64,000 bases of DNA from Janthinobacterium saanense. Lineage in GTDB: Bacteria; Pseudomonadota; Gammaproteobacteria; Burkholderiales; Burkholderiaceae_D. The DNA lies in the NCBI RefSeq assembly GCF_014200675.1, contig NZ_JACHCI010000014.1, forward strand, positions 62,001 through 126,000, given 5' to 3'. Below are positions 4,515 to 22,219 of the stretch, piece by piece. Position numbers and translations under genes: made by a program. The notes beneath the pieces are model-generated. The model did no database searches. It saw only the letters and a program-made list of their open reading frames with translations, and was not told where the DNA came from. How positions within the stretch are numbered: the stretch's first letter is position 1; every line of letters begins with the position of its first letter.

Positions 4515-4550
4515 AAAAAAAAACCGGCTTCGCCAGTGCGGCAGCCGGTT
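4515..4550 (-). terminator. Rho-independent terminator, minus strand
   Basis: AACCGGCT (4522-4529) pairs with AGCCGGTT (4543-4550), with a further CGC/GCG pairing inside the loop. On the minus strand the stem is followed by a run of about nine T. It ends whatever minus-strand transcript crosses 4551-4884, presumably the OmpA operon or an independent RNA. Confidence 0.75.
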
Positions 4551-4884: not shown

Positions 4885-5952
4885 TTAAGGTTTGTCGCCG
4901 GCCAGGGGAACACGCTTAATGCCCGTCAATTCAATCTCTACCCGGCGGTTCGGCTGCAAGCAGGCGATCAGGGCGGTGCGTGGCGCCACTTTGTCGCAGG
5001 CGGCCAGCGGTGCGGATTTACCTTTGCCGTAGGCGCTGATGACGTTGGCGATGCCCTGTTCGCGCAGAAATTGTTTCACCGCCAGTGCGCGCTTTTCAGA
5101 CAGGGCCTGGTTGTAGGCATCCGATCCCAGCCGGTCCGTATGGCCGGTGACGGACAAGGTATCGATCTGCACATAACCCTGCTTCAGGCGGGCCGCCAGC
5201 TCACGTATCTTTGCCGCGCCCTGCGGCAGCAAATCGTGAGCCCCCGCTTTGTCGAAGGGGAACAAGGCGTCCATGTCCAGCGTAATGCGCTCATGCTCCA
5301 TGCGTGGCGGTGGCGGTGCCGGTTCTGGCGGTGGCTTGGGCTGGTCCACTGGGCAAGCCGCGGCAGCGGACTGGGCCGACGCTTGCGCATCTTCGGCCAG
5401 TTGCACATAGGGATTGGCATGGCGCCAGCCTTGTTGCTTGTATTCATTGCCGGCATGCACCAACTCCACTTCCCCGCAAGCCACTTTTTGCGCCGCGCAG
5501 GCAAAGCCGGGCGACTGGTGCAACTGGGCAAAGTTACGCCACAAATCCTCACGCAAGCGCGTGGCGCCATTCACCAGCGGCGTCTCGTCGCCGGGATTGG
5601 GACCGCTGCCGCTTTCCAGCGCGGCAACAATTTTTGCCGATTCCTGCAAGGCTAACAGGGGAAAATCCGAGCGGTCATTGCGCGTGTATTCATGGTAGGA
5701 CACGTCCAGCCAGCATTGCGCCTTGGACAGATAATAGTCCCCTACCCGCACGCCGCCATCGTTGAGTTTTTTGATGCGCTCCTGCAGCAGCCGGTAGGCT
5801 TGCTGGTCGCCGGACACGGCCTGGTCAGAAATACGCGCCTCGGGCAAGGCCAGCGGCCCGGCTGGCGCAGTCGTGGGCGTTGCCGCCTGGGCCAGGCCCA
5901 CGGCCAGCAGATTGGCCATCGATATTAAGGTCAATTTTTGAGTGAATTTCAT
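4885..5952 (-). CDS. OmpA-family periplasmic/outer-membrane protein with C-terminal peptidoglycan-binding domain
   Basis: 355 residues. I chose the start at 5952 because it gives a standard signal peptide (MKFTQKLTLISMANLLAVGL, cleavage after AQA) and is preceded by GGAAAG. An in-frame ATG at 5982 overlaps the upstream stop as ATGA but has no ribosome-binding site. Residues about 25-210 are a helical periplasmic region. A proline-rich linker (KPPPEPAPPPPRMEHE) leads to an OmpA-like domain with ALFPFDKAG, the peptidoglycan-binding core TGHTDRLGSDAYNQALSEKRA and the terminal NRRVEIEL strand. It should anchor to peptidoglycan through the C-terminal domain. As the last gene of a three-gene surface operon, it probably ties the barrel or giant protein to the cell wall. 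Confidence 0.9.
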   Translation of the reverse strand: MKFTQKLTLISMANLLAVGLAQAATPTTAPAGPLALPEARISDQAVSGDQQAYRLLQERIKKLNDGGVRVGDYYLSKAQCWLDVSYHEYTRNDRSDFPLLALQESAKIVAALESGSGPNPGDETPLVNGATRLREDLWRNFAQLHQSPGFACAAQKVACGEVELVHAGNEYKQQGWRHANPYVQLAEDAQASAQSAAAACPVDQPKPPPEPAPPPPRMEHERITLDMDALFPFDKAGAHDLLPQGAAKIRELAARLKQGYVQIDTLSVTGHTDRLGSDAYNQALSEKRALAVKQFLREQGIANVISAYGKGKSAPLAACDKVAPRTALIACLQPNRRVEIELTGIKRVPLAGDKP

Positions 5953-5978
5953 GGTCGATACTTTCCACAGGGTGAGGT

Positions 5979-8900
5979 TCATGGCCGGGCCAGGGTACGA
6001 TTGATGACAGGATCTTTGCCTTTGAACAGCTTTTCATCGAATTTGAAGCGCAGGCGCAAATAGGGGCCGCGTGCCGTGTAATCGGCGCCCGTCAGGTCGC
6101 GGTCGGTAAAACCGGACCAGTTATGCCCCGCCGACAGCCACAGGTTTTGTGCCAGCAAGTAGCCCACTTCCAGGCCGTTGGCCCATTGGCGCGAACCCCC
6201 TTGCGGGCTGCCCATCACGGCCGTCAGCACGCCGATGTCCCAGTTCTTGCTGATGTCATACACGGTGCGGCCCGAGAACAGCCATGCCGTGTATTTTTCC
6301 TGGCCGGCAGGCAAGTTCTTGTCGTTATTGTGCTTGGCGGCCACCCGGCCCGTGAACCACCATGGACGGCTGGGATGGTAATCCAGGTGAGTGGAAACGA
6401 TGTGCGCACGGTAATTGTCGCCATCGAGCTGCGACTTGTCGCGCACCGTCTTGTACTCGTAGCGGGCCAGGCCGTTGTAACGGTTGTTATCCACGGGGCG
6501 CCAGGCAAAACCCAGCTGCGCCCGGTCCTGCAGCACATTGCCGATCGGTGCGCCGCTGGCGTCATCGTTATTGCGCGTGTACAGCAGATAGTTGCGGGCC
6601 AGGAAAGTCCAGTCGCGGCTCAGCTTGCGCGCCCAGGCAATGGTATTGAGCCATTGATCCTGGCTCTGGTCGCCCGGTGCAATCTTGCTGTCGAACAGGC
6701 GGCGGTATTCCAGCTTGACGGAAGCGCGCCACAGCGGATTGGCCGAATAATCGAGCCCCGCCGCCACGGCCACCGCTTGCTGCTGCTGGCCGTTGATGAC
6801 TTTCAGGTATTCGACGTTCGTGCTGGCCGCCAGGCCTTCGCTGAGATTCCAGGTATTGCGCAAGCCGGAAGCGAGCTGCAGATCGCGCTGATTGCTGAGG
6901 CTGTAATCGAGCGCGTCACGCATGCGGTACTCGCCAAACACGGTGCCGCCCGGCATGTAGCCGGTATCCACGCCGGCGATAAAGCTGGTGCTGCGGTCGG
7001 CCGGATTGAGCGAATAGGCAGACGCCAGGCCAGTCTGGTTTTCATAGCGTCCATACAGGCGGCTGCGTTCGGCCAACTGGTATTGCGCACCCAGGGCATA
7101 GCGGTGCTGGTCGGTGTCGGAGACGCTTTTTTCCACTTCGCCGTTCAAAGTCCAGCGGTCCGTCGCCTTGTATTGCGTGCCCAGCCGCACGGTGGTGGCG
7201 TCCAGCGGGCCGCTGGTGCCGCCGCCCACGCCGGGATTAATCGGCGCAAAGGTGGTGATGCTGCTGCCGGTGACGGGGTCGATGGCCGTGTTGGCCGTGC
7301 CATTGCCATAAAAGCCGCCAACAGGATTCAAGCCCGTGCCCAGCGGCGCCGTGTTGGGCGCGATGCCGGCCGTCGATGGCAGGCCGCCGCTTTCCTTGAT
7401 GTGCTGCAAGGATACATCGAGCAGCCAGCGCTCGCTGGCGTTCCAGGCCACGCCCAGCCGGGCTGCATCGCGGTGGGCCTCGGTGCTGCGCTCATCGCTG
7501 CGGATCGCTTCGCCATACACGGTGACGGCCGGATTGATTTTATAGCCGGCCTTCAAGCCCGTCTCGCCGCGCCCGCCCGTGATGCCAGCCGCCGTGTTGT
7601 TGAAATCCGTGTCCGAGCGGCTCCAGTATGCACGCGCCTCCAGCTTGTCATCCTTGTGCTGCAACTCGACCCTGGCCGCATTGCCGCTGACGTCATCGCG
7701 CATTTCTCCTGCCTGGCCCGATGGCGTGGTGTAGATGCCGCCGCCCGCGCTGTAGCTGGTCGAGGTGGTGCGCGCCGCTTCGACCACCAGCAAGGTGTTG
7801 TCGCCCAGGCGCAGGCCAGCATTGACGCTATGCAATTTATACGGCGACAGCGGATTCTTGTCTTCCACGATGGCGCCGCCCAGGGAGACCATCTTGTTCA
7901 GCTGCAGCTGGCCATCGGCGCCCACGGTCCAGAATTTCTCGCCGCCCTGGTCCACCTCGTAGCTGATGCGTATCGATTGCGGATTGCCCGCCGCCGTCAG
8001 CGCGGGAATCGCCTGCTTGAACAGGATGCGCCCGCTGAAGGGCTCGAAGCTGTAATCCTCGAAGCGCTGCAACTGCGTTACTTGCAAGATATTGCCGTTC
8101 TGATTCTTGTCGCGCACCACGATCTCGATCTTTTCAGAGTTCTCGATGCCATTGTTATTGCGCACCGCGAATGGCCCCGAAGTACCGTTGGCCTGGTATT
8201 CCTCGATTACCTGTTTCAGGCTGTCGTTGATGGCAAACACGTTGGCGACGATGCCCTCTTTTTCATAATGGCCGCGTCCGCCCGTGGCCGTGCGGTTGTA
8301 CTGGCCCAGCTTGCGCTGCTGCAAGGTCGCCACATTGCCGCCACCCGTCATCTGGCTAAAACCTTCGCCGGTGGCAAAGTCGCCATACAGCACATAGCTT
8401 TTTTCCTTGTCGATACGCACATACAGGCGGTCGCTGGAACGGGCGTCGAAATTGCGGATGGAACTGTCGCCATACACGGGATAAAACTCTTCGGGATTGA
8501 CGTCGCGCAAAAGGCGCGAGCGCGTATCCTTGTCCGAGTCGTAGGCGGCCGTCAGCAAGGCGTCGCCACGTATCGTGCCTTTCAAGAACATGGCGGCGCG
8601 CCCCGCCACGTTGGCCTTGCCATTATTAAAACTGCGGCTCCAGCGGTCAATATCGCGTTCAAAGCCGTCATTGAAACGCGACGGTGAAATCGAACTGCTC
8701 GACAGGCTGCGCTTGCTGATAATGCCGTCGATCAAGCCCACGGCCAGCATATCGCGCAATTCGGGCAAGAAACTGATCACGCCCTGGGCCGCTGCAGAGC
8801 CAGCCGACACGCGCAGCAGCACGTCTTGCGGCGTGCCAGGCGCAATCAGGCTGAAACTGGCTACGCTATTCTCCACCTTCAACTGCGTGCCTGGCGTGAC

Positions 8901-9341
8901 CTTGTCGGCATCGCGTGCTTCCGGGCCCAGCTCGTCAGTCCGGGCGCCGGGCAGCAAGATGCGCCCGCCGCTCGCCTCCAGCGTCAGCAGGGCTGGCCCC
9001 TTCACCGGCTGGCCCTGCTCATCGAACAGGGTGACCCGCACCGTGACGGCGCTCTGGCCATCGGCCGGCACATCGCTTTGATCCGTATCGACGACGATGC
9101 GCGCGATGCCCCGGTTGATGCTGTAGTCCACCGCGCCGATGCGGTCGTTAAACAAGGTTGGCGGGGCAAGGCTGGGGCCGGCCACACTGTCCGGCAAGGG
9201 CATTTGGGCCTGGCTGACAGCCGGCAGCATCAGCAGCGCCAGCACCATGGCCAGCCGCTTGCGTGCAGGAAGATCGTTCTTCATAGGCGACTTTTCATGA
9301 AATTGGGCATCGAACTTGACGGGGGATGGCTTATTGCGCAT
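5979..9341 (-). CDS. Large outer-membrane beta-barrel protein with N-terminal invasin-like Ig domain
   Basis: 1,120 residues. The ATG at 9341 lies inside the end of the giant gene and has an excellent ribosome-binding site (GGGAGG five bases upstream), so it is preferred. The signal peptide proper begins at the second Met (MKNDLPARKRLAMVLALLML, cleavage after SQA), which leaves a long n-region. Residues about 85-190 resemble a bacterial Ig-like (Big_1/invasin) domain: DVPADGQSAVTVRVTLFDEQGQPV, then LLTLEASGG. From about 240 to the end the protein is made of alternating amphipathic strands with periodic aromatics (e.g. LYVRIDKEKSYVLYGDF), as in large barrels, ending with YLRLRFKF near the C-terminus. 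No TonB box or plug domain was seen. It is probably the outer-membrane exporter or anchor for the giant DUF11 protein; this role is inferred from operon order. Confidence 0.72.
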   Translation of the reverse strand: MRNKPSPVKFDAQFHEKSPMKNDLPARKRLAMVLALLMLPAVSQAQMPLPDSVAGPSLAPPTLFNDRIGAVDYSINRGIARIVVDTDQSDVPADGQSAVTVRVTLFDEQGQPVKGPALLTLEASGGRILLPGARTDELGPEARDADKVTPGTQLKVENSVASFSLIAPGTPQDVLLRVSAGSAAAQGVISFLPELRDMLAVGLIDGIISKRSLSSSSISPSRFNDGFERDIDRWSRSFNNGKANVAGRAAMFLKGTIRGDALLTAAYDSDKDTRSRLLRDVNPEEFYPVYGDSSIRNFDARSSDRLYVRIDKEKSYVLYGDFATGEGFSQMTGGGNVATLQQRKLGQYNRTATGGRGHYEKEGIVANVFAINDSLKQVIEEYQANGTSGPFAVRNNNGIENSEKIEIVVRDKNQNGNILQVTQLQRFEDYSFEPFSGRILFKQAIPALTAAGNPQSIRISYEVDQGGEKFWTVGADGQLQLNKMVSLGGAIVEDKNPLSPYKLHSVNAGLRLGDNTLLVVEAARTTSTSYSAGGGIYTTPSGQAGEMRDDVSGNAARVELQHKDDKLEARAYWSRSDTDFNNTAAGITGGRGETGLKAGYKINPAVTVYGEAIRSDERSTEAHRDAARLGVAWNASERWLLDVSLQHIKESGGLPSTAGIAPNTAPLGTGLNPVGGFYGNGTANTAIDPVTGSSITTFAPINPGVGGGTSGPLDATTVRLGTQYKATDRWTLNGEVEKSVSDTDQHRYALGAQYQLAERSRLYGRYENQTGLASAYSLNPADRSTSFIAGVDTGYMPGGTVFGEYRMRDALDYSLSNQRDLQLASGLRNTWNLSEGLAASTNVEYLKVINGQQQQAVAVAAGLDYSANPLWRASVKLEYRRLFDSKIAPGDQSQDQWLNTIAWARKLSRDWTFLARNYLLYTRNNDDASGAPIGNVLQDRAQLGFAWRPVDNNRYNGLARYEYKTVRDKSQLDGDNYRAHIVSTHLDYHPSRPWWFTGRVAAKHNNDKNLPAGQEKYTAWLFSGRTVYDISKNWDIGVLTAVMGSPQGGSRQWANGLEVGYLLAQNLWLSAGHNWSGFTDRDLTGADYTARGPYLRLRFKFDEKLFKGKDPVINRTLARP

Positions 9342-12300
9342 GATTGCCTCCCGCTGCCGGCGTGGTAGATGGCACGGCGGCAGGCAAAGGCTGGCTGCTA
9401 AAACTCTGTCCCGGCCCTCCCCTTTTCAGCGTTTCCGCGCCGCGCGTCTCACCCTGGGCCCGGCGTGCCTTGACTTGCTCCAGCACCGGGGCCGAGCAGG
9501 AACCTTCGATGAAGTCGGCACGCATCAGCTCGCCGTTCTTGGTATCGAGGAACAGGCTGTGCGCATCGCCCAGGTTGCGGTTCGACGCTTCCATCATGCG
9601 GCTGCCGCGCGGCAAGGTAGCGCCATCGACCTTGATCACATGGCTGTTCGGCGTGATGCCGCAATAGCTGTACTTGCCTTCCACGTCGGTGGTGAAGTTG
9701 GTGCCATCTTCCATGTACAGGCGCACGCCCGGTATGCCCAGTTCCTCGTCATCCTGCACGTGGTTGTGATTGCAATCGACAAACACCTTGCCGGCGATAC
9801 AGGCATCGGTGGTAAATACCCCACCCGTCACTTTCACCCTGGCCCGCGCCTCGTTCGACGCCGGACCGTTGGTGGTCGTCGCCTGGGCCCGGTTGATGCC
9901 GTCACCCTGCAGCGCACCGACACCCACCCGCAGACGGTAGCGGAAGATGATGCTGGCGTTCGGCTCCAGAGATTCGAGCTTGAACGACAGTTGCGGACCA
10001 GGCTTGCCGCCCGGATCGGCCTGCACCACATTGTTGCGCGTGGTGGTGCCGTCGATGTAGCGGAAGCCGGCCGGCAGCTTGTCGAGCACGCTGACGCCAA
10101 ACGCCGTCACCACGCCCGTGTTTTTCACCTCGATGGTGTACTGCAAGCTGTCACCGAGCTCGGCCGTGGTCTTGTTGGCGATCTTGCTGACCAACAGCAT
10201 CGGCTTGTCCTGAGTGTTGAACACCACCGGTGTAAAGCTGGGCGGCGTGGCGCCTGGCGTGGCCGGCAAGACGGCAGTATGGGCCGAGCTCGACTGCGCC
10301 AGCGCACCGGCAGGCGCCACCGGCGTCGCGACACCACCGCTCACCGCAATATAGCTGTGGCCGATATTGAAGCCGCCCGTGCCCGTACCTTGCGAGGTAC
10401 TCGCATACACCTGGTTCAGTTGCGGCACGGTCGGGATCGCCGCCACGCTGCCGAAGTCCACCACCACCGTAAAGGCGATGCTGCAACTTTCCTGCGGCAA
10501 CAAGTCACCCTTGCCAGTCAGCAAGCCAAACACCGTCACGCCATTAAAATCGGGATTGGCGCTACAGGCGCTGGCGCCGGCAGGCTGCGCCGTCACCAGC
10601 AGGCTGCCCGGCTTGAGAAGCACGCTGGTGGCCGTCGGGAAGACCGCCCTCAGGTTTTCCGTCACCTGCACCATGGTCGAGGCAGGCGAGCCGGCCGGAT
10701 AGCGGTTGGCCGCCTGCACCAGGTAGCCGATCTCGAACTTGCTGGCATCAAGCTGCTGTTGCGACGAAACAGACTTGATCACGTCCACCACCTGCGCCTG
10801 CAGGATCACCGGGGTCGGCGTATCTTCGCCCGTGAACGGCACGCCATCCACGGTTTCCGATGCATTGCCGTTACGGTTGGGGTCCACCTTGTCTATCATC
10901 GCCGCCACCTCGGCCGCCGTCGCCACCGTGCCCGCGTAAGCACCGGCATTGTTCGACGCATCGACCACGGCGTTGCCCACTGGCGGTGTGTAGACGGGAT
11001 TGGGCGCATTGGCCGCCACAGCGCGCGCCGCAAACGCCCGTGCCAGGCTGATGGCACCACCGGCATTGGCGCTCGCACCGCTGACGGAGCTGGCAAACAC
11101 GCTGTTGTTGTATTGCGGCAATGGCGTGCCCTGCACGGTCACTTGCACCGTGAAGGTCACCACGGTCAGCTCGCCTTCCGCCAGCGCCGCATCGCCGGTC
11201 AGCAGACGCAGGTCGCTGCCGCTGCAGCCGCCATTGAAAGCCGGGTTGACCGGCAACTGCTTGCTGCCGGCAATCGCTGGCGCCGATGGCGGCGTCACGA
11301 TGCTGCAGGTGGCCGGTGCAGGGAAGGTGGCGGCCAGGCTGTCCAATGCCTGAACATTGCCCGTCGCCCCCTTGCCTACGTTCTTGACCACCACTGTATA
11401 AGGCACGTTATAAACCTGTGCCGACAGCTGCGTCACCTTGCCCACGGCCAGCGAAGCGCCGATGGCGGGCTGCGCCACGTCGGTGACAGCCGTGCAATCG
11501 CTGGCCTGGGCGCAGCGCGGTCCATCAGGGCCGGACGGCACCACCGTGTTGTTCAGCGCACCACCACTGCTGAGCTGCGCGCTGACAGTCACTGCCGCGA
11601 CCGCGTTTGGCGCCAAGCCGGCCGGCACCGTGCAGACCAGCTTGTTGCCCACCAGCGCAGCGCAGGTGGCCGGCGCTACCGGCGTGACCGTGATATTGGC
11701 GAGGTTAGCCGGCAAATCATCGCTCAGGGTCACGGCGGATGTCGTCGCGCCACTGCCGTTATTGGCGGCAGTCATCGTCCAGCTGACCGTGTCGCCCACC
11801 GTCGCCGTGGCTTTGTCAGCCACCTTTTTCACCAGCACGCTGGAGCTGCTGACCGTGGTGCTGGTCTGGCAATCGGCAGGCTGCAAGCACTGCGGCCCGT
11901 CGGGACCGGACGGCACTACCGTGTTGACCACCACGCCAGCCTGCGTCACCTTGGCCGTGACCACGATGCTGGCCACGCCGCCATTGCCATTCAAACCAGC
12001 CGCAACGCTGCAATTGAGCACATTGCCAGCCACCGGACTGCAGCTGGCGCCCGTCGCATTGACCACCACGCTGGCCAGGCTGGCCGGCAAGGTGTCGGCC
12101 AGCGCAATCGCCGCGCGGGTGACGCCGCCGCCCGTATTGGTGGCCGTGATGGTCCAGCTCACGGTATCGCCCACATTGGCCGTAGTGTGGCTGGCGACCT
12201 TTTTGATGGCCACTTTCGGCCCTGTCAGCACCACGCTGGACTGGCAATCGCCCGCCTGTGCGCATGCTGCATGGTCGGGACCGCCAGGCACCACGCGGTT

Positions 12301-15300
12301 GGACAAGGTACCTTCCGCGCTGCCGCTGGCCGTGATGCGGATGCTGCGCGTGCCATTCACGGCCGCCAATTGACCGGCGGCGATGCTGCAAGTCTGTACG
12401 CTGCTGGCCAGCCAGCTGGCCAATGGCGGACAAGTCACGCCCGCATCGGCCGCCACATTCGAGACCGTCAGATTGGCCGGCAAGATGTCAGCCAGGCTCA
12501 CCACACCCAGGTTGGCCGCGCCACCGCTGTTGATGGCCGTGATGGTCCACACAATGCTGTCGCCCAGCTTGCCCGTCGCCACGCTGGCCGTCTTGCTCAC
12601 GCGGATCACCGCGCCCGGCATGGTGACGACAGCCGTGTTGGGCAAGTCATTCTGCACTTCGGTGGAACTGGTGGCGATGGTGCTGACGATGGTCGAGACA
12701 TTGCTGGCCGGCTGGATATACGCCAGGGTAAAACTGTGCGTCTCGTTGGCCGCCAGGCTGGCTGGCAAGCCCGTCACGGTGAGGATGCCGCTGGCCGCAT
12801 CGTAGCTGCCGGCCGCGCCGATCAGGTTCACGCCCACCAGGCCCTGCGCCAGTTTCAGGCTGTAGCTAACATTGTCGGCCGTGCCCGGACCCACGTTGCT
12901 GAAACTTACCGTGCCCGAAATCTGGTCGCCCGCACTGGTGCTGCCGGGGAAGCCGTTCAGGCTGGTGGTCACATCGACCAGCAGCCTGGCGACCGTGCTG
13001 CTGGTCTGGCAATCGCTGGCCTGCACGCAAACGGCGTTGTCGGTGCCGCTCGGCAAGACACTATTTTGCAAGGCGCCCGCCGCCGTCGCCGTCGCGCTGA
13101 CGACCACTTGCGCCACCGCGCCCGGCGCCAGGCCGGCCGTCACGTTGCAACTGAGGATGGCGCCCGCTGCCGGCAAACAAGTGGCCAGTTGCGTGGACAA
13201 TACTTGCACATTGCTCACGCCGGCCGGCAGCTTGTCCGTCAGGAGGATGGCTGCGCGGGTGGGACCCGTGCCGTTGTTGCTGGCCGTAATCGTCCAGGTC
13301 ACAGTATCGCCCACGTTCAGGCTGGTTTTATCGACGCTCTTGCGCACAGCCACATTCGGCGCGGCCAACGTCGTCGTCGCCTGGCAGGCGCTGGCCTGTT
13401 CGCAGGCCGGATTATCCGTGCCGCCCGGCATGACCCGGTTCGACAGCGGACCTGCCGCGCTGCCACGGCCCGTGATGCGCACGCTGCGGCTGCCATTCAA
13501 TGCCGCCAGCTGGCCGACGGCCACGCTGCAGCTTTGCACGCTGCCGGCCGTCCAGCTGGCCAGCGCGGGGCAGCTCACGCCCGCATCGGCCGTCACACTG
13601 AGCACGACGATATTGGCTGGCAACACATCGCCCAGGGTCACCACACCCTGGTTGGCCAGGTTGCCGGTGTTGCTGGCGGTAATCGTCCAAGTTAAGGTAT
13701 CGCCCACGGCGGCCGTGGCCTTGTCAACCGTCTTGCTGACGCGCACCAGAGGACCGGGCAAGCTGGTGGTGGCCGTCTTCGGCAAGCCGACCGGCACAGC
13801 CGGCGAGGTGGTGGAAATCACGCTGGTAATGCGCGAACTGTTCGTGCCAGGCTGCACATAGAACAGGCGGAAGCTGACGCTCTGGCCGCTGACCAGGGTC
13901 GCCGGCAAGCCGCTCAGCACATACAAGCCGGTGCTGCTGTTATACACGCCGCTCACGCCAGGCGCACCGTTGACCGCACTCAGGGATACGCCGGTCAGGC
14001 CTTTTTCCAGTTGCAAACTGTACATGACATTCTCGGCCACGCCAGCGCCTTCGTTGCTGAAGGTCACCACGCCGTTGATGGCGTCACCCGCATTGCTGCT
14101 GGGCGGGAAACCGTTCAAGGTAGTGGTCACGTCCACCAGCAAGGCCGACACCACCGTGCTGGTGCTGCAATCGCTGGCCTGCAGGCAGACAGGATTGTCC
14201 GGGCCGCCAGGCAGCACGGTATTGTTCAGACTACCGGCCAGGGTAGCCGTGGCGCTCAGCCTGACACTGGCGCTGGCGCCCGCAGCCAGGCCGGCCGGCA
14301 CGCTGCAGGTGACGACATTGCCCACCGGCGCGGCGCAAGTGGCCGGCGCGGTCGGCGCCAGCATGATATTGCTCAAGCCAGCTGGCAAGGTATCGGTCAA
14401 GGTGACTATGCCGGTGCTGGCGCCCGTGCCGCTATTGCGCACACTCAAAGTCCAGGTCAGGGTGTCGCCGACGGTGGCGGCTTGCTTGTCCACGCTTTTG
14501 ATCACGTTCAGGTTCGGACTATTGACCACACTGCTGGTCGTACAATCGCTCGCCTGCAGGCAAACGGGATTGTCTGGACCGTTAGCCGTGACGCTATTGC
14601 CGAGCGCCCCGGCCACGGTGGCGCGGGCACTGATCTGCACGCTGGCAGTGGCGCCCGCACTCAAACCAGCCGGTACGCTGCAAGTGAGCACATTGCCGGC
14701 GACTGGCGCGCACGTGGTGGGCGCCACAGGCGTGACGACCATATTGGCCAGGCCAGCGGGCAAGGTGTCGGTCACGGTGGCAACGGCCGTGCTGGCGCCG
14801 GTGCCGCTATTGGCCAGCGTAATCGTCCAGGTGAGAGTGTCGCCGAGATTGAGCGCCGCCTTGTCGACGGTTTTTCTCAAAGCCAGCACCGGGCTGGTGA
14901 CGTTGACCGTGCTGAGGCAGGCGCTGGCCTGGCTACAGGCTGGGTTATCGGGACCGCTGGGCACGACCTGATTGGCCATGCTGCCGCCGGCACTGGCATG
15001 GCCGGTCAGCACGATCTTGCGCAAGCCATTGTTGGGCGCCAGTTGGCCAGCGGCAACGCTGCAGCTCTGGCTGCTATTGGCCAGCCAGCTGGCCAGCGGC
15101 GGACACGTCACGCCGCTGTCGGGCGTGACGCTGGTGACGATGATATTCGGTGGCAAGATATCCGTCAGGGTCACGACGCCCTGGTTGGCCAGGCTGCCCG
15201 AATTGCTGGCGGTAATCGTCCAGCTGATGTCTACCCCCAGATTGGCCACGCTCTTGTTGGCCGTCTTGCTAACACGCACGATGGAACCTGGCGTGGTGGC

Positions 15301-18300
15301 CGTCGCCACGTTCGGCTGGTCGTTCGGCACTTCGGTCGAACTGGTGGCGATACGGCTGACCACGGTCGACAGATTGCTGGCCGGCTGGGTATAGCGCAGC
15401 TGGAAGCTGAGCCCCTGCCCCGCCGTCAAGGTGGTGGGCAAGCCGCTCAAGGTCAGCAGGCCGGTAGCGGCATCGTAACTACCGGACACGCCGGTGACGC
15501 TGACACCGGCCAGGCCCGTGGCCAGTTGCAAACTGTACGTCACGCCTTCGGCAGCGCCAGGGCCAATATTGCTGTAGCTCACAGTGCCCGTGATGGTATC
15601 GCCCGCGTTGCTGCTGCCGGGGAAACCATTGAGCGTGGTGGTCACGTCCACCAGCAATTTCACGGCCGTGCTGCTGGTCGTGCAATCGGCGGCCTGGGTG
15701 CACACTGGATTGTCGGGGCCGCTCGGCAGCACCGTGTTGACGTAGGCACCGGCGGCCGTGGCCACGCCCTTGACGACGATATTGAGCGAGGCGCCTGCCA
15801 CGAAACCGGCCGGTATCGTGCACACCAGCTGGTTACCGTTGACGGCGCCGCAGGTGGCTGGCGATGCGGGCAGCACCTGGCCCACGGTCAGGTTGGCCGG
15901 CAAGGTATCGCTCAAGGTGATCGCGCCGGTGGTGGCGCCGGTGCCGTTGTTGGCCACCGCGATGGTCCAGGTCAGCGCATCGCCGACATTGAGATTGCTC
16001 TTGTCGACGCTCTTGCGCACCGTCACTTGCGGACTCAATATAGTCGTGGTGCTCTGGCAGGAAGATGCTTGCGCGCAAGCGGGGTTATCCGGGCCGCTCG
16101 GCAATACCTTGTTGCCCAGGTTGCCGGCCACAGTGCCGCGCGCGGCGATCGTGATGCTGCGGCTGCCATTGCCTGCCGCCAATTGGCCGGGGGCGATGGT
16201 ACACGCTTGCGCGCTGTTGGCTTGCCAGCTGGCCAGTGGCGGACAGCTGACGCCGGCGCCCGGCGTCACGGCGGTGACCGCCACGTTCGCTGGCAAGATA
16301 TCAGTCAGGGTCACCACGCCCAGGTTGGCCAGGCTGCCCGTATTGATGGCCGTGATGGTCCACGTCACCGTATCGCCCACGTTGGCCACCTGCTTGTCGG
16401 CCAGTTTGCTAACGCGGATGATGGGACCGGGCACCGACACACTGGCCGTGTTCGGCAAGTCATTCGCCACTTCCTGCGTGGTGGTGGCGATGCTTGACGT
16501 CACCAGCGACAGATTGTTGGCCGGCTGCGTATAGCTGATATTGAAGCTGGTGCTCTGGCCGCTGGCCAGGCCAGTTGGCAAGCCCGTCAAAGTCAGCACG
16601 CCGGTGGCGCTGTTGTACGTTCCGCTTGCGCCCGTCACCGTCACGCCGGACAAGCCGGCCGTCAGTTTCAGGCTGTAGGTCACGCCGTCGGCCGGGCCGG
16701 GGCCCACGTTGGCGTAGGTGACGATGCCGCTAATCAAGTCGCCGGGCTGGGTATTGGGCGGGAAATTGTTCAGGGTGGTGGTCACGTCCACCAGCAGCCT
16801 GACCACATTGGTGCTGGTGCCGCAATCGCCAGCCTGCACGCAGACGGGGTTGTCGGGACCGGATGGCAGCACGCTATTGACGGCAGATCCGGCCAGGGTG
16901 ACCGTGGCTTTCACCACCACCTTGGCCGATGCGCCAGCGCCCAGCCCTGCCGGCACGCTGCAAGTGAGGGTAGTCCCGGCCAGCACGGCGCAGGTGGTGG
17001 GCGCTTGCGGCGTGACCTGGATATTCGTCAGGCCGGCAGGCAAGGTATCGACCAGGTTGATCACCGCCGTGGTCGGGCCCGTGCCGCTATTGCTGGCTGT
17101 CACAGTCCAGGTAATCGCATCGCCCACATTGACCGTGGCCTTGTCGGCCGTTTTCGTCACTGCCACCTTGGGACTGGTCACTGTGCTGCTGGTGCTGCAG
17201 TTGGCTGGCGTCAGGCAAAGCGGGCTGTCGGGACCGGATGGCACGACGCTATTGGCAAACGTGCCGCCGATAGTCGGCTGCGCCGTCACGTTGACGCTGG
17301 CCGCCGCGCCACCGGCCAGGCCGGCCGGCACCGTGCAAGTAAGGATATTGCCGACCGGCGCAGCGCAGGTGGCGGGCGCAGCAGGTGTTACCACCAGGCC
17401 CGTCAAATTGGCCGGCAAGGTATCGACCAGCAGCACCGGCGCGGTGGTCGCGCCACTGCCGCTATTGCTGACGTTCAAGGTCCAGCTCAGGGTGCCGCCA
17501 AGATTCACGCTATTTTTATCGACGGTTTTAGTCACTGCCACTTTCGGGCTGGTGACAGTCGACGTCGTCTGGCAATCGCTGGCCTGGCTACAGACAGGAT
17601 TGTCGGGGCCGGACGGCAGCACGCTATTGGCAAACGTACCGGCGATGGCTGGCTGCGCCGTCACGGTCACGCTGGCCATGGCATTCGCAGCCAGGCCGGC
17701 TGGCACCGTGCAAGTGAGCACATTGCCGACCGGCGCCGCGCAGGTGGTGGGTGCAGCAGGTGTTACCACCAGGCCCGTCAAATTGGCCGGCAAGGTATCG
17801 ACCAGCAGCACCGGCGCCGTGGTCGCGCCGCTGCCGCTATTGTTCACCGTCAAGGTCCAGCTCAGGCTGGCGCCGAGATTCACCGTATTCTTGTCGACCG
17901 TTTTAGTCACCGCCACCCTCGGACTGGTGACAGTAGAGCTGGTGTGGCAATCGCTCGCTTGCAGGCACAGCGGATTATCGGGGCCGGATGGCAGCACGCT
18001 ATTGACAAACGTGCCCGCGATGGCCGCTTGCGCCGTCACATTGATGCTGGCCGAAGCGCCGCCGCCAGCCAGGCCGGCCGGCACCGTACACGTCAGGATA
18101 TTGCCCACGACTGGCGTGCAAGTGGCGGGCGCCACCGGCGTTACCACCAGGCCCGTCAAATTGGCCGGCAAGGTATCGACCAGCACCACCGGCGCGGTGG
18201 TGGGACCATTGCCGGTATTACTCACCGTCAAGGTCCAGTCCAGGCTTCCCCCGAGATTCACGCTGCTCTTGTCGACCATTTTGTTCACCACCACTTTCGG

Positions 18301-21300
18301 GCTGGTGACGAGCGAGGTCGTCTGGCAATCGCTGGCCTGCAGACAGACTGGATTGTCAGGACCGGATGGCAGCAGATTGTTGGTGAGGCTGCCGGCGATG
18401 GTCGGCCGCGCCGTCACGCTGACGCTGGCACTCGCCCCGGCCGCCAGGCCGGCCGGCACCGTGCAGGTCACCACGTTGCCCACAGGTAGCGCACAGATGG
18501 TGGGCGCCACCGGCGCCACCAGCAAATCGGCCAGGCCGGCTGGCAAGGTATCGCTCAGGACCATGGGCGCCTTGGTGGCGCCATTGCCGGAATTGCTGGC
18601 CGTCAGGATCCAGTTCAGGGTGCCGCCCAGATTCACGCTGTTCTTGTCGACCGTCTTGCTCACTGCCACTTTCGGGCTGGTGACGGTCGTCGCCGTCTGG
18701 CAATCGGCAGCCACGTTGCAGGCTGGATTGTCCGTGCCGGATGGCAGCACGCGGTTGGCCAGGTTGCCGCCCTGCGTGGCATACGCTGTAATGGTCACCG
18801 TGCGCAGGCCCGTGGTCGCCGCCAACTGCCCGGCAGCGATGGTACAGCTCTGCGTGCTCGATGCCTGCCAACTGGCCAGCGGCGGGCAGGTCATGCCGGG
18901 TGCGGTGACCGACGTCACGACCAGATTGGCCGGCAGGATATCGGCCAGGGTCACCACGCCCTGGTTGGCAACGCTGCCCGTGTTGCGGGCCGTGATGGTC
19001 CAGGTGATCAGATCGCCCACGTTGGCCGTGGCCTTGTCGGCGCTCTTGCTGACGCGGATATTCGGACCCGGCACCGTCACCATGGCCGTGTTCGGCAAGT
19101 CATTCACCACCTCCACCGACGTGGTGGCGATGATGCTGTTCACCGTGGAAACGTTCGTCACTGGCTGCGTGTAGCTCAATGTAAAGCTGAGGCTTTGTCC
19201 CGCCGCCAGGGTCACCGGCAAGCCGGATAGCGCGATGACACCCGTGACCGGGTTATAGCTCCCGCTCACGCCATTCACGCTGACATTGGCCACACCGAGC
19301 GGCAACTTCAGCGTGTAGCTGACGCCTTCGGCCGTGCCCGGTCCCAGATTGGTATACGTGACGGTGCCGCCGATGGTGTCGCCGGCATTCGTTACGCTGG
19401 GAAAGCCGTTAAGTGTGGTGGTCACGTCGACCAGCGGCTTTTGCACGGTGGTGCTGGTCTGGCAATCGGCCGGCAACAGGCAGACCGCGCCATTGCCGCC
19501 TGATGGCAACACGCTATTGATAAAACTGCCATTGAGCGTGGCCACGGCCGACACTTTCACCTGGGCGGCCGCGCCCGGCGCCAGGCCGGCCGGCACGCTA
19601 CACGTGAGGGTATTGCCCACCGGCGCGGCGCAGGTGGTCGGCGCCGTGGGCGTGACGACGATATTGCTCAAGTTGCCGGGCAAGCTGTCGCTCAATATCA
19701 ATGGCGCCGTGGTCGTGCCCGTACCGCCATTGCTGGCGGCCAAGGTCCATGTCAGGGTGTCACCCACGTAGGCCGTGGTCTTGTCGACGGTTTTCTTCAC
19801 GCTCACGAGGGCAGCGACGACACCCAGCGATTTGGTGTCGACATTATTGGCGGGGGTCGGGTCCAGCGTGGCCGAGGCGGCCGTGGTGGTGATCGCCAGG
19901 TTGCCGCTGGCAGGCAAATTAAAGGTGGCACTGCAATTGATACGTGAATTGACGCCAAACGGCACGCCAGGCGCGCTGCAGGTTGCCGTCGCGCCCACCG
20001 GCAAGCCGCTCATCACGCAGGTCGGCGTGACGGCGGGATCGGGACCGTTATTGGTGCAGACACCCGTCACGGTGATGCTCTGACCCGCATTGTAGGGCCC
20101 GCTTGGTATCGTGGTGACGGCTTGCATGTCTGCCTGCAGGCGGCGGTTGCTGATGGTGCAGGTGACGGGCGCATCGGGCATGATCAAGCTACCCGATGCC
20201 GTTGCGCCGGTGGCGACAATGGCGGCCGTATCGGTGCGCGCGCAACTATAGCTGCTCTGGTATTGCAGCAAATTGGTCGCCGCGCCCGCCGTTTCGGCCA
20301 GGCTCACGGACGCCCCCACCCGCACGCTGGCATTCGCCGTCGCGCCATTGCCGGCCGCCGTGCCCAGCGTGCCATTCGCGTTCATGATGAACAGGCCGGG
20401 GTCGGCCGCCGGCGTGAGCGCCTTGATCACTGTCAAAAGATTGGTCTTCGCCGTGGCGGTAGTGGTGCTGTTGTTGTTGCTCAGGTCAGGGTCGGTCTCG
20501 TTGGGCGAGACGGTCACGCTGGCCGTGTTGGCGATGCTGGCGACATTGCCGGGCGTGGCCGTAATGCTGATGGTCAGGTAAGCGCCGCTGGCGGGAGTGG
20601 CCGTGGCCGTATTGACGGGCAAGGCGCCCATGGTAAGGTTGACGTTATTGCTGCCCGAACCCGAGCTGGTGGTGCCGCAGGAAGCACCGCCGCTGGCCAC
20701 GCAAGTCCAGCTGACACTGCTCAAGCTGGCAGGCAGCACATCGGAAAAGGTGGCGCCGTTGCTGCTGGCCGGTCCCCGGTTCCACACCTTGACGGTATAG
20801 CTCAGCGGCGTGCCGACCGAAAATTGGGCCGGTCCCACCTTGTTGACGGCCAGGTCGGTCCGGCTATTGGTGCAACTGGCATACGAACTGGCCAGGCCAG
20901 GATCGCGCAGCTGGGCAGCGGGAATGATTTCCGTGACACCGTCAGGGCGCTTCCAGCGCATATGCATGTAATTAATGCCGCCCACGTTATTCCACAGCAC
21001 GCGGGCCAGATAACAGCCGCCCGGCGTGGCGCTATTGAAATTGCCGGGCAGATTCTGGAAATCCGTTTCATTCGCGGAATAATCGGAAACACTCCCCACC
21101 GGCACGTTATACACGGCGCTGCGGTAATTGGTGGAATATTGCGTAGAGAAATCCACTTTCACGTCATCGTCGTGCGCCACGCTAAACTGGTAATTACCGG
21201 CCTGCGGAAATACCACCAGGGTGTACATCACGCGGCCCTGTATCCAGTTGCGACAAGCCGTGAGGGTGCTCTGGGAATCCGTATTGCATAACTGTGCGCC

Positions 21301-21666
21301 GTCGCCGGTTCCCGCATTGCTCCAGTCCATCTGGGGCGAACTGCCCGTGCGCGCGGCGTTCAGGCCAGGGTTTGCGTCGAGCGCCAGCAAACTGGCCACC
21401 CGTGCGCCAGTGCCCGCGTTAAAACTGTTGTCGTAATTCGGCGTAGCCGGATTGGCTGGCACGCGCGAGGTGCCCCGGTAATCGGACCACAGCACTTGCG
21501 CGCCGGCTGGTGCAGCGGCGCCCAGCAGCAAGCCGGCCAGCACCAGCACAGGCACACGGCGGCGGCGGTCGGACAAGGCGGCAATGGCAGTGCCAAAGCA
21601 AGAGGCAACTGAAGTGAGGCGCTGGCGGCTGCGAAGATCAACCGCTCCGTGGAAGAATGTTGTCAT
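9331..21666 (-). CDS. Giant secreted DUF11-repeat surface protein with PA14-like N-terminal and SdrD_B-like C-terminal domains
   Basis: About 4,110 residues, with no frame break over 12.3 kb. I start at ATG 21666 (preceded by AGCGGAAAAT); an in-frame GTG at 21690 would add 8 residues. The N-terminus has an arginine-rich region, then a hydrophobic core (VPVLVLAGLLLGAAAPAGA) consistent with a long signal peptide. Residues about 60-250 look like a PA14-type ligand-binding domain (VLWSDYRGTS..., FPQAGNYQFSVAHDDDVKV). Two DUF11-like units and a prealbumin-like segment follow. Next is an unbroken array of 22 modules of about 125 residues (roughly 19815 down to 11475), then further DUF11-like units including KPMLLVSKIANKTTAELGDS. 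Near the C-terminus is an SdrD_B-like domain (CIAGKVFVDCNHNHVQDDEE, GVRLYMEDGTNF). There is no LPxTG or autotransporter barrel, so export and anchoring probably depend on the two downstream genes. It is probably an adhesin or surface filament. Confidence 0.88.
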   Translation of the reverse strand: MTTFFHGAVDLRSRQRLTSVASCFGTAIAALSDRRRRVPVLVLAGLLLGAAAPAGAQVLWSDYRGTSRVPANPATPNYDNSFNAGTGARVASLLALDANPGLNAARTGSSPQMDWSNAGTGDGAQLCNTDSQSTLTACRNWIQGRVMYTLVVFPQAGNYQFSVAHDDDVKVDFSTQYSTNYRSAVYNVPVGSVSDYSANETDFQNLPGNFNSATPGGCYLARVLWNNVGGINYMHMRWKRPDGVTEIIPAAQLRDPGLASSYASCTNSRTDLAVNKVGPAQFSVGTPLSYTVKVWNRGPASSNGATFSDVLPASLSSVSWTCVASGGASCGTTSSGSGSNNVNLTMGALPVNTATATPASGAYLTISITATPGNVASIANTASVTVSPNETDPDLSNNNSTTTATAKTNLLTVIKALTPAADPGLFIMNANGTLGTAAGNGATANASVRVGASVSLAETAGAATNLLQYQSSYSCARTDTAAIVATGATASGSLIMPDAPVTCTISNRRLQADMQAVTTIPSGPYNAGQSITVTGVCTNNGPDPAVTPTCVMSGLPVGATATCSAPGVPFGVNSRINCSATFNLPASGNLAITTTAASATLDPTPANNVDTKSLGVVAALVSVKKTVDKTTAYVGDTLTWTLAASNGGTGTTTAPLILSDSLPGNLSNIVVTPTAPTTCAAPVGNTLTCSVPAGLAPGAAAQVKVSAVATLNGSFINSVLPSGGNGAVCLLPADCQTSTTVQKPLVDVTTTLNGFPSVTNAGDTIGGTVTYTNLGPGTAEGVSYTLKLPLGVANVSVNGVSGSYNPVTGVIALSGLPVTLAAGQSLSFTLSYTQPVTNVSTVNSIIATTSVEVVNDLPNTAMVTVPGPNIRVSKSADKATANVGDLITWTITARNTGSVANQGVVTLADILPANLVVTSVTAPGMTCPPLASWQASSTQSCTIAAGQLAATTGLRTVTITAYATQGGNLANRVLPSGTDNPACNVAADCQTATTVTSPKVAVSKTVDKNSVNLGGTLNWILTASNSGNGATKAPMVLSDTLPAGLADLLVAPVAPTICALPVGNVVTCTVPAGLAAGASASVSVTARPTIAGSLTNNLLPSGPDNPVCLQASDCQTTSLVTSPKVVVNKMVDKSSVNLGGSLDWTLTVSNTGNGPTTAPVVLVDTLPANLTGLVVTPVAPATCTPVVGNILTCTVPAGLAGGGASASINVTAQAAIAGTFVNSVLPSGPDNPLCLQASDCHTSSTVTSPRVAVTKTVDKNTVNLGASLSWTLTVNNSGSGATTAPVLLVDTLPANLTGLVVTPAAPTTCAAPVGNVLTCTVPAGLAANAMASVTVTAQPAIAGTFANSVLPSGPDNPVCSQASDCQTTSTVTSPKVAVTKTVDKNSVNLGGTLSWTLNVSNSGSGATTAPVLLVDTLPANLTGLVVTPAAPATCAAPVGNILTCTVPAGLAGGAAASVNVTAQPTIGGTFANSVVPSGPDSPLCLTPANCSTSSTVTSPKVAVTKTADKATVNVGDAITWTVTASNSGTGPTTAVINLVDTLPAGLTNIQVTPQAPTTCAVLAGTTLTCSVPAGLGAGASAKVVVKATVTLAGSAVNSVLPSGPDNPVCVQAGDCGTSTNVVRLLVDVTTTLNNFPPNTQPGDLISGIVTYANVGPGPADGVTYSLKLTAGLSGVTVTGASGTYNSATGVLTLTGLPTGLASGQSTSFNISYTQPANNLSLVTSSIATTTQEVANDLPNTASVSVPGPIIRVSKLADKQVANVGDTVTWTITAINTGSLANLGVVTLTDILPANVAVTAVTPGAGVSCPPLASWQANSAQACTIAPGQLAAGNGSRSITIAARGTVAGNLGNKVLPSGPDNPACAQASSCQSTTTILSPQVTVRKSVDKSNLNVGDALTWTIAVANNGTGATTGAITLSDTLPANLTVGQVLPASPATCGAVNGNQLVCTIPAGFVAGASLNIVVKGVATAAGAYVNTVLPSGPDNPVCTQAADCTTSSTAVKLLVDVTTTLNGFPGSSNAGDTITGTVSYSNIGPGAAEGVTYSLQLATGLAGVSVTGVSGSYDAATGLLTLSGLPTTLTAGQGLSFQLRYTQPASNLSTVVSRIATSSTEVPNDQPNVATATTPGSIVRVSKTANKSVANLGVDISWTITASNSGSLANQGVVTLTDILPPNIIVTSVTPDSGVTCPPLASWLANSSQSCSVAAGQLAPNNGLRKIVLTGHASAGGSMANQVVPSGPDNPACSQASACLSTVNVTSPVLALRKTVDKAALNLGDTLTWTITLANSGTGASTAVATVTDTLPAGLANMVVTPVAPTTCAPVAGNVLTCSVPAGLSAGATASVQISARATVAGALGNSVTANGPDNPVCLQASDCTTSSVVNSPNLNVIKSVDKQAATVGDTLTWTLSVRNSGTGASTGIVTLTDTLPAGLSNIMLAPTAPATCAAPVGNVVTCSVPAGLAAGASASVRLSATATLAGSLNNTVLPGGPDNPVCLQASDCSTSTVVSALLVDVTTTLNGFPPSSNAGDAINGVVTFSNEGAGVAENVMYSLQLEKGLTGVSLSAVNGAPGVSGVYNSSTGLYVLSGLPATLVSGQSVSFRLFYVQPGTNSSRITSVISTTSPAVPVGLPKTATTSLPGPLVRVSKTVDKATAAVGDTLTWTITASNTGNLANQGVVTLGDVLPANIVVLSVTADAGVSCPALASWTAGSVQSCSVAVGQLAALNGSRSVRITGRGSAAGPLSNRVMPGGTDNPACEQASACQATTTLAAPNVAVRKSVDKTSLNVGDTVTWTITASNNGTGPTRAAILLTDKLPAGVSNVQVLSTQLATCLPAAGAILSCNVTAGLAPGAVAQVVVSATATAAGALQNSVLPSGTDNAVCVQASDCQTSSTVARLLVDVTTSLNGFPGSTSAGDQISGTVSFSNVGPGTADNVSYSLKLAQGLVGVNLIGAAGSYDAASGILTVTGLPASLAANETHSFTLAYIQPASNVSTIVSTIATSSTEVQNDLPNTAVVTMPGAVIRVSKTASVATGKLGDSIVWTITAINSGGAANLGVVSLADILPANLTVSNVAADAGVTCPPLASWLASSVQTCSIAAGQLAAVNGTRSIRITASGSAEGTLSNRVVPGGPDHAACAQAGDCQSSVVLTGPKVAIKKVASHTTANVGDTVSWTITATNTGGGVTRAAIALADTLPASLASVVVNATGASCSPVAGNVLNCSVAAGLNGNGGVASIVVTAKVTQAGVVVNTVVPSGPDGPQCLQPADCQTSTTVSSSSVLVKKVADKATATVGDTVSWTMTAANNGSGATTSAVTLSDDLPANLANITVTPVAPATCAALVGNKLVCTVPAGLAPNAVAAVTVSAQLSSGGALNNTVVPSGPDGPRCAQASDCTAVTDVAQPAIGASLAVGKVTQLSAQVYNVPYTVVVKNVGKGATGNVQALDSLAATFPAPATCSIVTPPSAPAIAGSKQLPVNPAFNGGCSGSDLRLLTGDAALAEGELTVVTFTVQVTVQGTPLPQYNNSVFASSVSGASANAGGAISLARAFAARAVAANAPNPVYTPPVGNAVVDASNNAGAYAGTVATAAEVAAMIDKVDPNRNGNASETVDGVPFTGEDTPTPVILQAQVVDVIKSVSSQQQLDASKFEIGYLVQAANRYPAGSPASTMVQVTENLRAVFPTATSVLLKPGSLLVTAQPAGASACSANPDFNGVTVFGLLTGKGDLLPQESCSIAFTVVVDFGSVAAIPTVPQLNQVYASTSQGTGTGGFNIGHSYIAVSGGVATPVAPAGALAQSSSAHTAVLPATPGATPPSFTPVVFNTQDKPMLLVSKIANKTTAELGDSLQYTIEVKNTGVVTAFGVSVLDKLPAGFRYIDGTTTRNNVVQADPGGKPGPQLSFKLESLEPNASIIFRYRLRVGVGALQGDGINRAQATTTNGPASNEARARVKVTGGVFTTDACIAGKVFVDCNHNHVQDDEELGIPGVRLYMEDGTNFTTDVEGKYSYCGITPNSHVIKVDGATLPRGSRMMEASNRNLGDAHSLFLDTKNGELMRADFIEGSCSAPVLEQVKARRAQGETRGAETLKRGGPGQSFSSQPLPAAVPSTTPAAGGNHAQ
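11475..19815 (-). repeat. Tandem array of 22 DUF11-type modules in three classes (A, B, C)
   Basis: Going from N to C terminus the order read from the translation is C, A-B-C-C-C-C-C, A-B-C, A-B-C-C, A-B-C, A-B-C-C. Class A begins LLVDVTTTLNGFP and has no cysteine. Class B begins (I/V)RVSK and contains VTLxDILPAN and CPPLASW. Class C begins SPxVxVxKxVDK and contains DTLPA and LTCxVPAGL. Each module is about 375-390 bp. Class A units start near 19446, 16806, 15665, 14150 and 12990. Confidence 0.85.
16806..18685 (-). repeat. Five near-identical consecutive class-C modules (about 375 bp each)
   Basis: Boundaries fall near 18685, 18308, 17931, 17555 and 17180, ending at 16806. Long stretches are nearly identical at DNA level, for example the block beginning ACCACCAGGCCCGTCAAATT at about 17393, 17766 and 18151. 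This is the youngest-looking part of the array and the place most likely to vary in copy number between strains. Confidence 0.8.
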
Positions 21667-22219
21667 ATTTTCCGCTATGAAATGCTGCACTGTGGTGAAC
21701 AGATATGCATATCAACCTGTCATCTTGTGACATGGCGATATGAACACTTAACAGTTCAAGCGTACGACAGTTGAGTCCGGTTTCTTTCGTGCAACACAAC
21801 TTTCATGATTCGTTGACATTCCACAACAAATTTCATGCATTACTAGCAGAACAAATAAGTTATTTTATTTTTTGGATATACTGGCCGATCCGCAAAATCA
21901 AAAAGATATTATTTTAATAATCATCAGGAACTATCGAATGAATAGCTTTTCATCTCCAAAACAAAATAAAACATGAATTATCACCAATTAACACAAATAA
22001 AAACAATATAAGTCCTTTGTTTCTCCCCGCCGGAAACTATTCTTAATTCCATCCTCTCCCTGCTTTATCGGCCGCTTGTCCTGGCATAAGGCCGCCGCCA
22101 GATTCAGACGCGCGGCGGCACAGCAGAGCTGGCTGAAACGGCGCCGTATCGTTTACTATCGGGCCATTGCGCACCGCGCCCTCACCCTTTGCTACACGCC
22201 ACGCCAGGAGTTGTCATCG
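21667..22219. promoter_or_regulatory. AT-rich regulatory region upstream of the giant surface-protein operon
   Basis: About 550 bp without a gene. The part from about 21840 to 22030 is much more AT-rich than anything around it (poly-A/T tracts such as TTATTTTATTTTTTGG), as seen at loci silenced by H-NS/MvaT/Bv3F-like proteins. Close to the giant gene are two palindromes: GATATGCATATC (21702-21713) and TGTCA-N5-TGACA (21718-21732). No convincing -35/-10 pair was found. The right part also holds the leader of the YceI-like lipoprotein gene. Confidence 0.4.

Follow-up and report, generated by a model that had tools for sequence, protein, structure and literature searches.

A putative three-gene surface-display system for a giant DUF11 fibrillar adhesin in Janthinobacterium saanense and related bacteria

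The DUF11 domain was renamed CLIPPER in PMC12617251, the available part of which reports a crystal structure with an isopeptide bond and describes an adhesin of Acinetobacter silvestris (B9T28_05395) that consists of a CshA_NR2-like tip, a CLIPPER stalk and an OmpA-like anchor. In another described system, AtaA-TpgA, the partner protein binds both the membrane anchor of the adhesin and peptidoglycan, as stated in the available portions of PMC8151025 and PMC13082670. Here we describe a locus of Janthinobacterium saanense in which a giant DUF11 protein is encoded together with a large predicted outer-membrane barrel and an OmpA-like protein, a three-gene set of which we found no description in the open-licence literature. 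We put at about 70% the probability that, as comparison with related sequences suggests, this set displays a giant fibrillar adhesin on the cell surface by means of a dedicated unit that would comprise a stalk, a C-terminal docking module, a barrel that serves as exit and seat, and an OmpA-like staple. To our knowledge, the means by which long DUF11 fibers of Pseudomonadota cross the outer membrane and stay in it have not been assigned.

The analyzed window is a 64,000-nucleotide stretch of the J. saanense genome, in which the three genes occupy positions 21690 to 4885 of the minus strand. They were noticed in a preliminary description of this DNA as three overlapping genes, an arrangement that is borne out by the open reading frames (ORFs) at 21690-9331, 9341-5979 and 5982-4885. 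The giant fibrillar-adhesin gene (P0001; 9331..21690) encodes 4,119 amino acids if read from the GTG at 21690, which gives the longer ORF, or 4,111 from the ATG at 21666, the start chosen earlier. The outer-membrane barrel gene (P0002; 5979..9341, 1,120 amino acids) starts inside the giant gene, as had been proposed: its ATG lies at 9341-9339, the overlap is 11 bp, and a Shine-Dalgarno sequence, GGGAGG (9347..9352, minus strand), is located within the giant gene 5 nt before this ATG, so that the final codons of the giant gene double as the ribosome-binding site of the barrel gene. The ATGA reported at the junction between the barrel gene and that of the OmpA-like peptidoglycan-binding partner (P0003; 4885..5982, 365 amino acids) is present at 5982-5979, although a second, in-frame ATG at 5952 is an alternative start of P0003 and begins a more usual signal peptide than the 5982 start.

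The probable end of the operon is a terminator-like hairpin with a T run (4523..4537, minus strand), which is a pattern match only, the number of such matches in the window not exceeding that in shuffled sequences; scans for promoters and for terminators both gave counts close to those in shuffled sequences. Rfam gave no match within positions 1-30000 of the window. Upstream of the giant gene, an AT-rich gap of about 500 bases (21690-22240) contains one weak promoter-like match on the minus strand. On the other side of the set, the plus strand carries, within 3825-4471, a DUF2442 gene (4031-4471) preceded by a short ORF that by eye resembles DUF4160; gene pairs of the DUF2442/DUF4160-like kind are often termed toxin-antitoxin-like.

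The conservation of this arrangement was assessed in a scan of GTDB genome contigs with the barrel protein, from which the best 80 of 553 relatives were taken as named loci. These 80 come from Janthinobacterium, Massilia, Undibacterium, Collimonas, Rhodoferax, Stenotrophomonas, Xanthomonas, Lysobacter, Pseudoxanthomonas, Candidatus Glomeribacter and others. With the OmpA-like partner counted by a match to its helical N-terminal domain (hereafter P3N), the order giant-barrel-OmpA was found in 67 of the 80 loci and the order barrel-OmpA-giant in three; the remainder are giant-barrel (5), barrel-OmpA (3), barrel alone (1), and a fused giant-barrel gene with an OmpA gene (1, L143). In five loci (L110, L113, L117, L118 and L150) a contig edge lies on the side of the missing gene, L118 having 600 bases there with no match. 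A DUF11 ORF lies downstream in L175 and L112, an ORF with an OmpA domain but without P3N is present in L172, and no missing partner was detected at L170. A possible start codon of the barrel gene at an overlap of exactly 4 bp (38 cases) or 11 bp (25 cases) was found at 63 of 72 giant/barrel junctions, which are not independent events since the named loci are related to each other. Even the most widespread family of flanking ORFs, as called, is found at no more than 26 of the 75 loci that have flanks, and hence no fourth constant partner is seen.

We also examined how the three families are distributed over 145 genomes of the same family, 29 of which contain a barrel match at E <=0.001. In 12 of these 29, the barrel is split, that is, a separate ORF with a best E value of 2.4e-166 or lower (a class that was set after the hits had been seen); the other 17 have only fused, distant or weak forms, and none of them encodes P3N. 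The genomes with a split barrel, those with a giant tail of at least 57% identity and those with an intact P3N are the identical 12 of 145, with weaker matches to the giant tail in 26 further genomes. The association of intact P3N with the split-barrel class has a Fisher p of 9e-18 over the 145 genomes, a value that ignores kinship and depends on a post hoc class, and that with any barrel match (12/29 vs 0/116) has a p of 5e-10, again with kinship ignored. In one genome (G061), a broken fragment of P3N occurs without a barrel match, and in a draft of 790 contigs (G009) P3N lies on a contig other than that of the barrel. The distribution of the system is patchy: among the eight Janthinobacterium genomes of the family sample, only that of the window has the split form and one other (G092) has a distant form, and the split form was further found in five other Janthinobacterium records (L099-L103). 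The search of related genomes for co-occurrence and fixed order of the three genes that the preliminary description had suggested found the same order in 67 of 80 loci and the same 12 of 145 genomes.

In many relatives, the giant tail and the barrel are a single protein. Among 40 loci examined as stretches of 9-20 kb, a selection from the barrel matches in the family and phylum samples, 13 are split like that in the window and all of these have the giant, the barrel and the OmpA partner (in two of them the contig ends within the giant gene). In 21 of the 40, the giant tail and the barrel form one ORF of about 1,600-2,530 amino acids, in which DUF11 repeats (where detected) are followed by the SdrD_B-like tail, the Ig region and the barrel. 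One of these fused proteins (L074) ends in a clear OmpA domain, two (L088, L090) have a weak OmpA match (26-28 bits) within the chain, and two others (L086, L087) adjoin a P3N-OmpA gene; in the remaining 16 of 21, profile searches of the fetched stretch found no OmpA domain in or beside the gene. The last six loci have two genes, with a giant gene before a more distant barrel; the barrel protein has an OmpA match in five of the six, and in the sixth (L092), owing to a broken frame, this match falls on an upstream ORF.

Several features of these relatives are recorded here as separate observations. In seven fused loci (L076-L080, L083, L084), a second ORF of about 550-930 amino acids with one or two DUF11 matches lies 3' of the fused gene, and so in 7 of the 21 a DUF11 ORF occupies the place where split systems carry the OmpA gene. 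Some loci are on plasmids: a fused form with an OmpA gene in Acinetobacter haemolyticus, and giant and barrel in Phyllobacterium, Eleftheria and Sulfitobacter; relatives were seen on both alphaproteobacterial and cyanobacterial plasmids.

Together, the conserved order, the shared genomes and the fusions in 21 of 40 loci (one of which also includes a clear OmpA domain) lend good support to the single machine envisaged in the preliminary description. The three could in principle be mere neighbors, an adhesin, a porin and a housekeeping OmpA protein with independent functions, in keeping with the P3N-OmpA genes that occur without a barrel in 5 of the 15 genomes of the order with a P3N match and with the lack of an adjacent OmpA gene in most fused loci; given the fixed order, the gene overlaps, the identical set of 12 genomes and the fusions, we regard such independence as very improbable.

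Turning to the individual proteins, P0001 appears to be a CLIPPER-stalk adhesin: it has tandem DUF11 matches in 24 stretches (Pfam, E up to 0.1), to which NCBIfam adds matches to isopeptide-forming domains, and the Lys-Asp-Asn isopeptide triad is found in 18 of 25 repeats aligned to the positions of the DUF11 crystal structure. The stalk spans 10021..20853 (minus strand). In mature P0001, 78 of the 88 cysteines have another cysteine within 17 residues and 10 do not; over the 57 giants compared (see below) the corresponding numbers are 1,400 and 681 of 2,081, with 38% in close proximity expected under random placement. The triad and the close cysteine pairs, both shared with the CLIPPER adhesins in the available part of PMC12617251, suggest that isopeptide bonds and disulfides form in the stalk. 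Type V passengers, by contrast, have few, closely spaced cysteines according to the portion of the review PMC8151025 at hand, whereas those of the window giant are many and mostly closely spaced. The likeness to CLIPPER adhesins, again as far as that source goes, extends to the general plan of a DUF11 stalk with an OmpA-like anchor and, in L104 (see below), a CshA_NR2-like adhesive domain at the N-terminus; in the A. silvestris adhesin, however, a single chain includes the OmpA-like domain as well and the available text describes no separate barrel, whereas here the barrel and the OmpA-like protein are encoded by separate genes of an operon-like set.

The N-terminal extension with the signal peptide (...RRRRVPVLVLAGLLLGAAAPAGAQ; 21496..21666, minus strand) was delineated by eye, without a predictor. 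It is followed by a PA14-like domain that may be an adhesive tip (20920..21216, minus strand; PF07691, E=0.003, with 17.8 bits where the gathering score is 24), for which no match among solved structures was found. No adhesive domain was recognized in 8 of 10 scanned giant N-termini, which are DUF11-type or unrecognized; the exceptions are this sub-threshold PA14 match and the CshA_NR2 domain of L104 (E 9e-14, above the cut-off). L104 is the locus of Candidatus Glomeribacter gigasporarum, a fungal endobacterium with a small genome, where the three-gene set has 61% barrel identity and a short giant of 1,218 amino acids that includes the CshA_NR2 tip.

At the other end of P0001, we found no autotransporter-barrel, TPS, YadA, RTX, Por_secre_tail/CHU_C or LPXTG model (Pfam, E up to 0.1), so the absence of a C-terminal barrel or sorting motif noted previously holds at the level of Pfam models, but the C-terminus is not featureless: it carries a recognizable anchor module (9334..9825, minus strand) that was defined by Pfam and conservation in relatives and consists of an SdrD_B-like domain (about residues 3956-4085; Pfam match at 3967-4023, just under the cut-off) and a VLEQVKARR segment. 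To compare regions, we used 57 giant ORFs that are closed at both ends and were chosen by a tail match above 150 bits; L170 and L172, with weaker tails, were dropped, and the set probably includes at least one part of a frame-broken gene (L102). Across 250 random pairs, 150-residue stretches share 25% identity in both the N-terminal and the middle region and 74% in the C-terminal module, the last figure being favored by the choice of giants through their tails.

A short ATDSANQ-type peptide was considered as a docking signal that would replace the covalent link of the fused chains, being present in 52 of the 57 split giants vs 1 of 22 fused chains, this one (L143) a recent-looking fusion; a narrower pattern gave 62 of 88 split giants (duplicates included) vs 1 of 18. 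The candidate was rejected: the peptide is missing in the window's giant and in L099, its nearest relative, and therefore cannot be essential, which leaves only the SdrD_B-helix module as the anchor.

The variable N-terminus and the stalk, with about 25-33 Ig-like domains that would extend over some 130 nm (at an assumed 4 nm per domain), also bear on whether the giant reaches the cell surface. Conceivably, it could remain a periplasmic chain that is attached to the barrel and, via the OmpA protein, to peptidoglycan and acts as an envelope spacer: the family of the OmpA partner points to a periplasmic location, the termini of barrels normally are periplasmic as well, and in fused chains the giant lies on the N-terminal side of the barrel. 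A periplasmic location fits poorly with such a length, with the variability of N-terminus and stalk and with N-terminal domains of the tip type, PA14-like in the window and CshA_NR2 in L104, and we consider it quite improbable.

The barrel protein has no barrel match at the curated cut-off in Pfam or NCBIfam. In its AlphaFold2 model (66 sequences; mean pLDDT 69.7, pTM 0.65, medium confidence), an Ig-like domain (residues 81-210; 8712..9101, minus strand) and a helix (226-241) precede a very large predicted transmembrane barrel (residues 243-1101; 6039..8615, minus strand) with about 41 strands of at least 7 residues, 32 of which are in a regular run from residue 454; the strands were counted by hand from the DSSP list, and both the closed wall and its strands are predictions only. 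The Ig-like domain, mentioned already in the preliminary description, is consistent with a weak Big_1 match at 83-139, under the gathering score. An ideal barrel of 36-42 strands would have a radius of 32-42 Å, so that the predicted barrel would in principle be wide enough for an Ig domain, a point of geometry and not evidence of passage.

Comparisons with solved structures gave no match at E up to 1 for the single P0002 sequence; the profile matched invasin (1cwv, E 0.0026) along with two chance-level matches. In Foldseek, the model retrieved MtrB, SlpA/SDBC, LptD, TonB receptors and SprA, with TM-scores <=0.29 among the best 50 of 964 matches; given these low scores to generic large barrels, assignment to any of these families was dropped. 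The resemblance to SprA, the type IX translocon (PDB 8gl8, 8gl6), is that of a very large outer-membrane barrel matched at a distance; it is offset by TM-scores of 0.09-0.14, 7% identity and the length of P0002, about half that of SprA, and no type IX C-terminal domain (Por_secre_tail, CHU_C) was matched on the giant in Pfam or NCBIfam. Inverse autotransporters (type Ve, intimin/invasin) likewise combine an invasin-like Ig domain and a barrel in one chain, but in P0002 the Ig domain comes before the strands and the barrel is far larger; Pfam gave no intimin-barrel match on P0002. Two-partner secretion (type Vb, TpsA/TpsB) similarly has a giant passenger and a barrel encoded in adjacent genes, but the conserved region of the window giant is C-terminal, not N-terminal, and no POTRA/Omp85 or TPS-domain match was found in the set (Pfam, NCBIfam, E up to 0.1). 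Nor was the 12-strand type Va barrel PF03797 or a YadA-type anchor matched on P0001 or P0002 (Pfam, E up to 0.1). Thus, the earlier suggestion that the arrangement differs from the type V and two-partner routes is upheld at the level of family models, with no such matches in Pfam or NCBIfam.

The same lack of a match to classical translocator families (Pfam, NCBIfam) would agree with a barrel that is an anchor only, holding the C-terminus of a giant exported by another route, such as a type I or a type II system. The OmpA-like anchoring domain of the A. silvestris adhesin, with no barrel described in the available part of PMC12617251, would be in line with this as well. We nevertheless find this reading unlikely: P0001 has no match to RTX or other type I models (Pfam, NCBIfam; such signals are not always modelled), the fused forms follow the order of type V proteins, with the barrel C-terminal to the passenger, and among the locus flanks no additional gene family accompanies the set at more than 26 of 75 loci. 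Of the two roles, export of the giant by the barrel appears likelier than holding alone, given the type V order of the fused forms and the absence of a fourth gene that stays with the set.

The identification of the third gene product as an OmpA-type protein is confirmed by a PF00691 match (residues 247-330, 50.6 bits, Pfam). Its predicted model (pLDDT 86.5) consists of an all-helical domain (45-210) and the OmpA domain, the latter closest to Salmonella OmpA, with 45% identity to 4rha among the Foldseek matches listed; the best 50 matches listed include OmpA-domain structures. The helical domain, P3N (5308..5865, minus strand), has neither a solved relative by sequence nor a Pfam match. For P0003, PADLOC gave only MotB-like matches to the OmpA domain, which we read as fold similarity and not as a sign of a role in defense. 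D283 and R298, which we take to be the DAP ligands of OmpA domains, are invariant in all 55 rows of an alignment of P0003 with 54 of the 71 partners from the named loci, chosen for having both domains. In two of the named split loci, the partner is a closed ORF with P3N but without the OmpA domain (L124:13148-13816, 222 amino acids; L174:12976-13602, 208 amino acids), and in another (L141) the contig ends within the partner gene; a partner gene with P3N and no OmpA domain was likewise seen at L200:18126-18806.

To place P3N in a broader context, we searched 300 genomes of the order with its profile, which matched 17 genes in 15 genomes. Ten of the 17 adjoin the barrel system, two follow trimeric autotransporters, one follows an AsmA/DUF748 gene, three (in three genomes) follow a galactose-oxidase-like gene, and one is at a contig end. 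Among 398 genomes of the phylum, ten were matched: four with a split barrel, three with P3N beside a fused barrel, two without a barrel match (G392, G463) and one weak. Thus, of the possibility raised in the preliminary description that the three families might be found mostly apart, nothing applies to the giant and the barrel, which occur together, whereas the OmpA partner is partly apart, both in the 16 of 21 fused loci where no OmpA domain was found and in the 6 of 17 order genes that lie beside other genes. As side observations, the three genes next to galactose-oxidase-like genes (L189, L190, L191) belong to a single Burkholderiales genus and represent a further use of the anchor family, and the P3N-OmpA gene directly 3' of the AsmA/DUF748 gene (L184:8682-13877) has a second copy in the same genome that adjoins a trimeric autotransporter.

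These contexts point to an OmpA partner family that would be common to two unrelated types of giant adhesins. As in AtaA-TpgA (in the available text of the articles cited above), a giant adhesin gene adjoins that of an OmpA-like protein with a separate N-domain, and P3N is found beside YadA-type adhesins in two genomes; unlike in AtaA-TpgA, the window set lacks a YadA anchor and has its barrel as a protein of its own, which is far larger. P0003 scored 80.4 bits against the NCBIfam TpgA model, below the cut-off of 350 and over the OmpA domain only. The invariant D283 and R298 and the occurrence of P3N beside trimeric autotransporters favor the proposal of the preliminary description that the OmpA protein ties the complex to the cell wall, and a staple of this kind is, for the split systems, part of our best account.

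Under the surface-display reading, the giant would be exported by Sec, with its variable N-terminus acting as the adhesive tip (PA14-like in the window) and the DUF11/CLIPPER middle as a stiff stalk in which isopeptide bonds within domains and disulfides of short loops would act as locks. The C-terminal module, comprising the SdrD_B-like domain and a helix, would dock on the Ig region at the N-terminus of the barrel protein, and this protein would be both the outer-membrane exit and the seat of the fiber; since the fiber and the barrel are one polypeptide in many relatives, the docked split pair would do non-covalently the job of the fused chain. The OmpA-like protein would bind the assembly via its helical N-domain and staple it to peptidoglycan, presumably keeping a pulled fiber from extracting the barrel, as is thought for TpgA with AtaA. 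The surface location, the C-terminal docking, the passage through the barrel and the load-bearing role are thus all predictions of this scheme.

A more far-reaching version, possible yet doubtful in our judgment, is that of a distinct outer-membrane route with a barrel of about 38-42 strands (estimated radius 33-42 Å), in which folded, locked Ig domains would pass through or sit in the lumen and the SdrD_B-like C-terminal module would be recognized; such a route would exist in separate and fused forms across Pseudomonadota, would have relatives of its barrel on plasmids of cyanobacteria, and would draw its OmpA partner from a family that also serves trimeric autotransporters. A count of about 38-42 strands, if true, exceeds the 36 strands of SprA, and the barrel, which has no Pfam or NCBIfam model of its own, may thus exceed solved barrels in size. 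The natural fusions make the partnership of giant and barrel testable, and the three-gene set provides named candidates for the exit, the seat and the cell-wall tie of DUF11 fibers.
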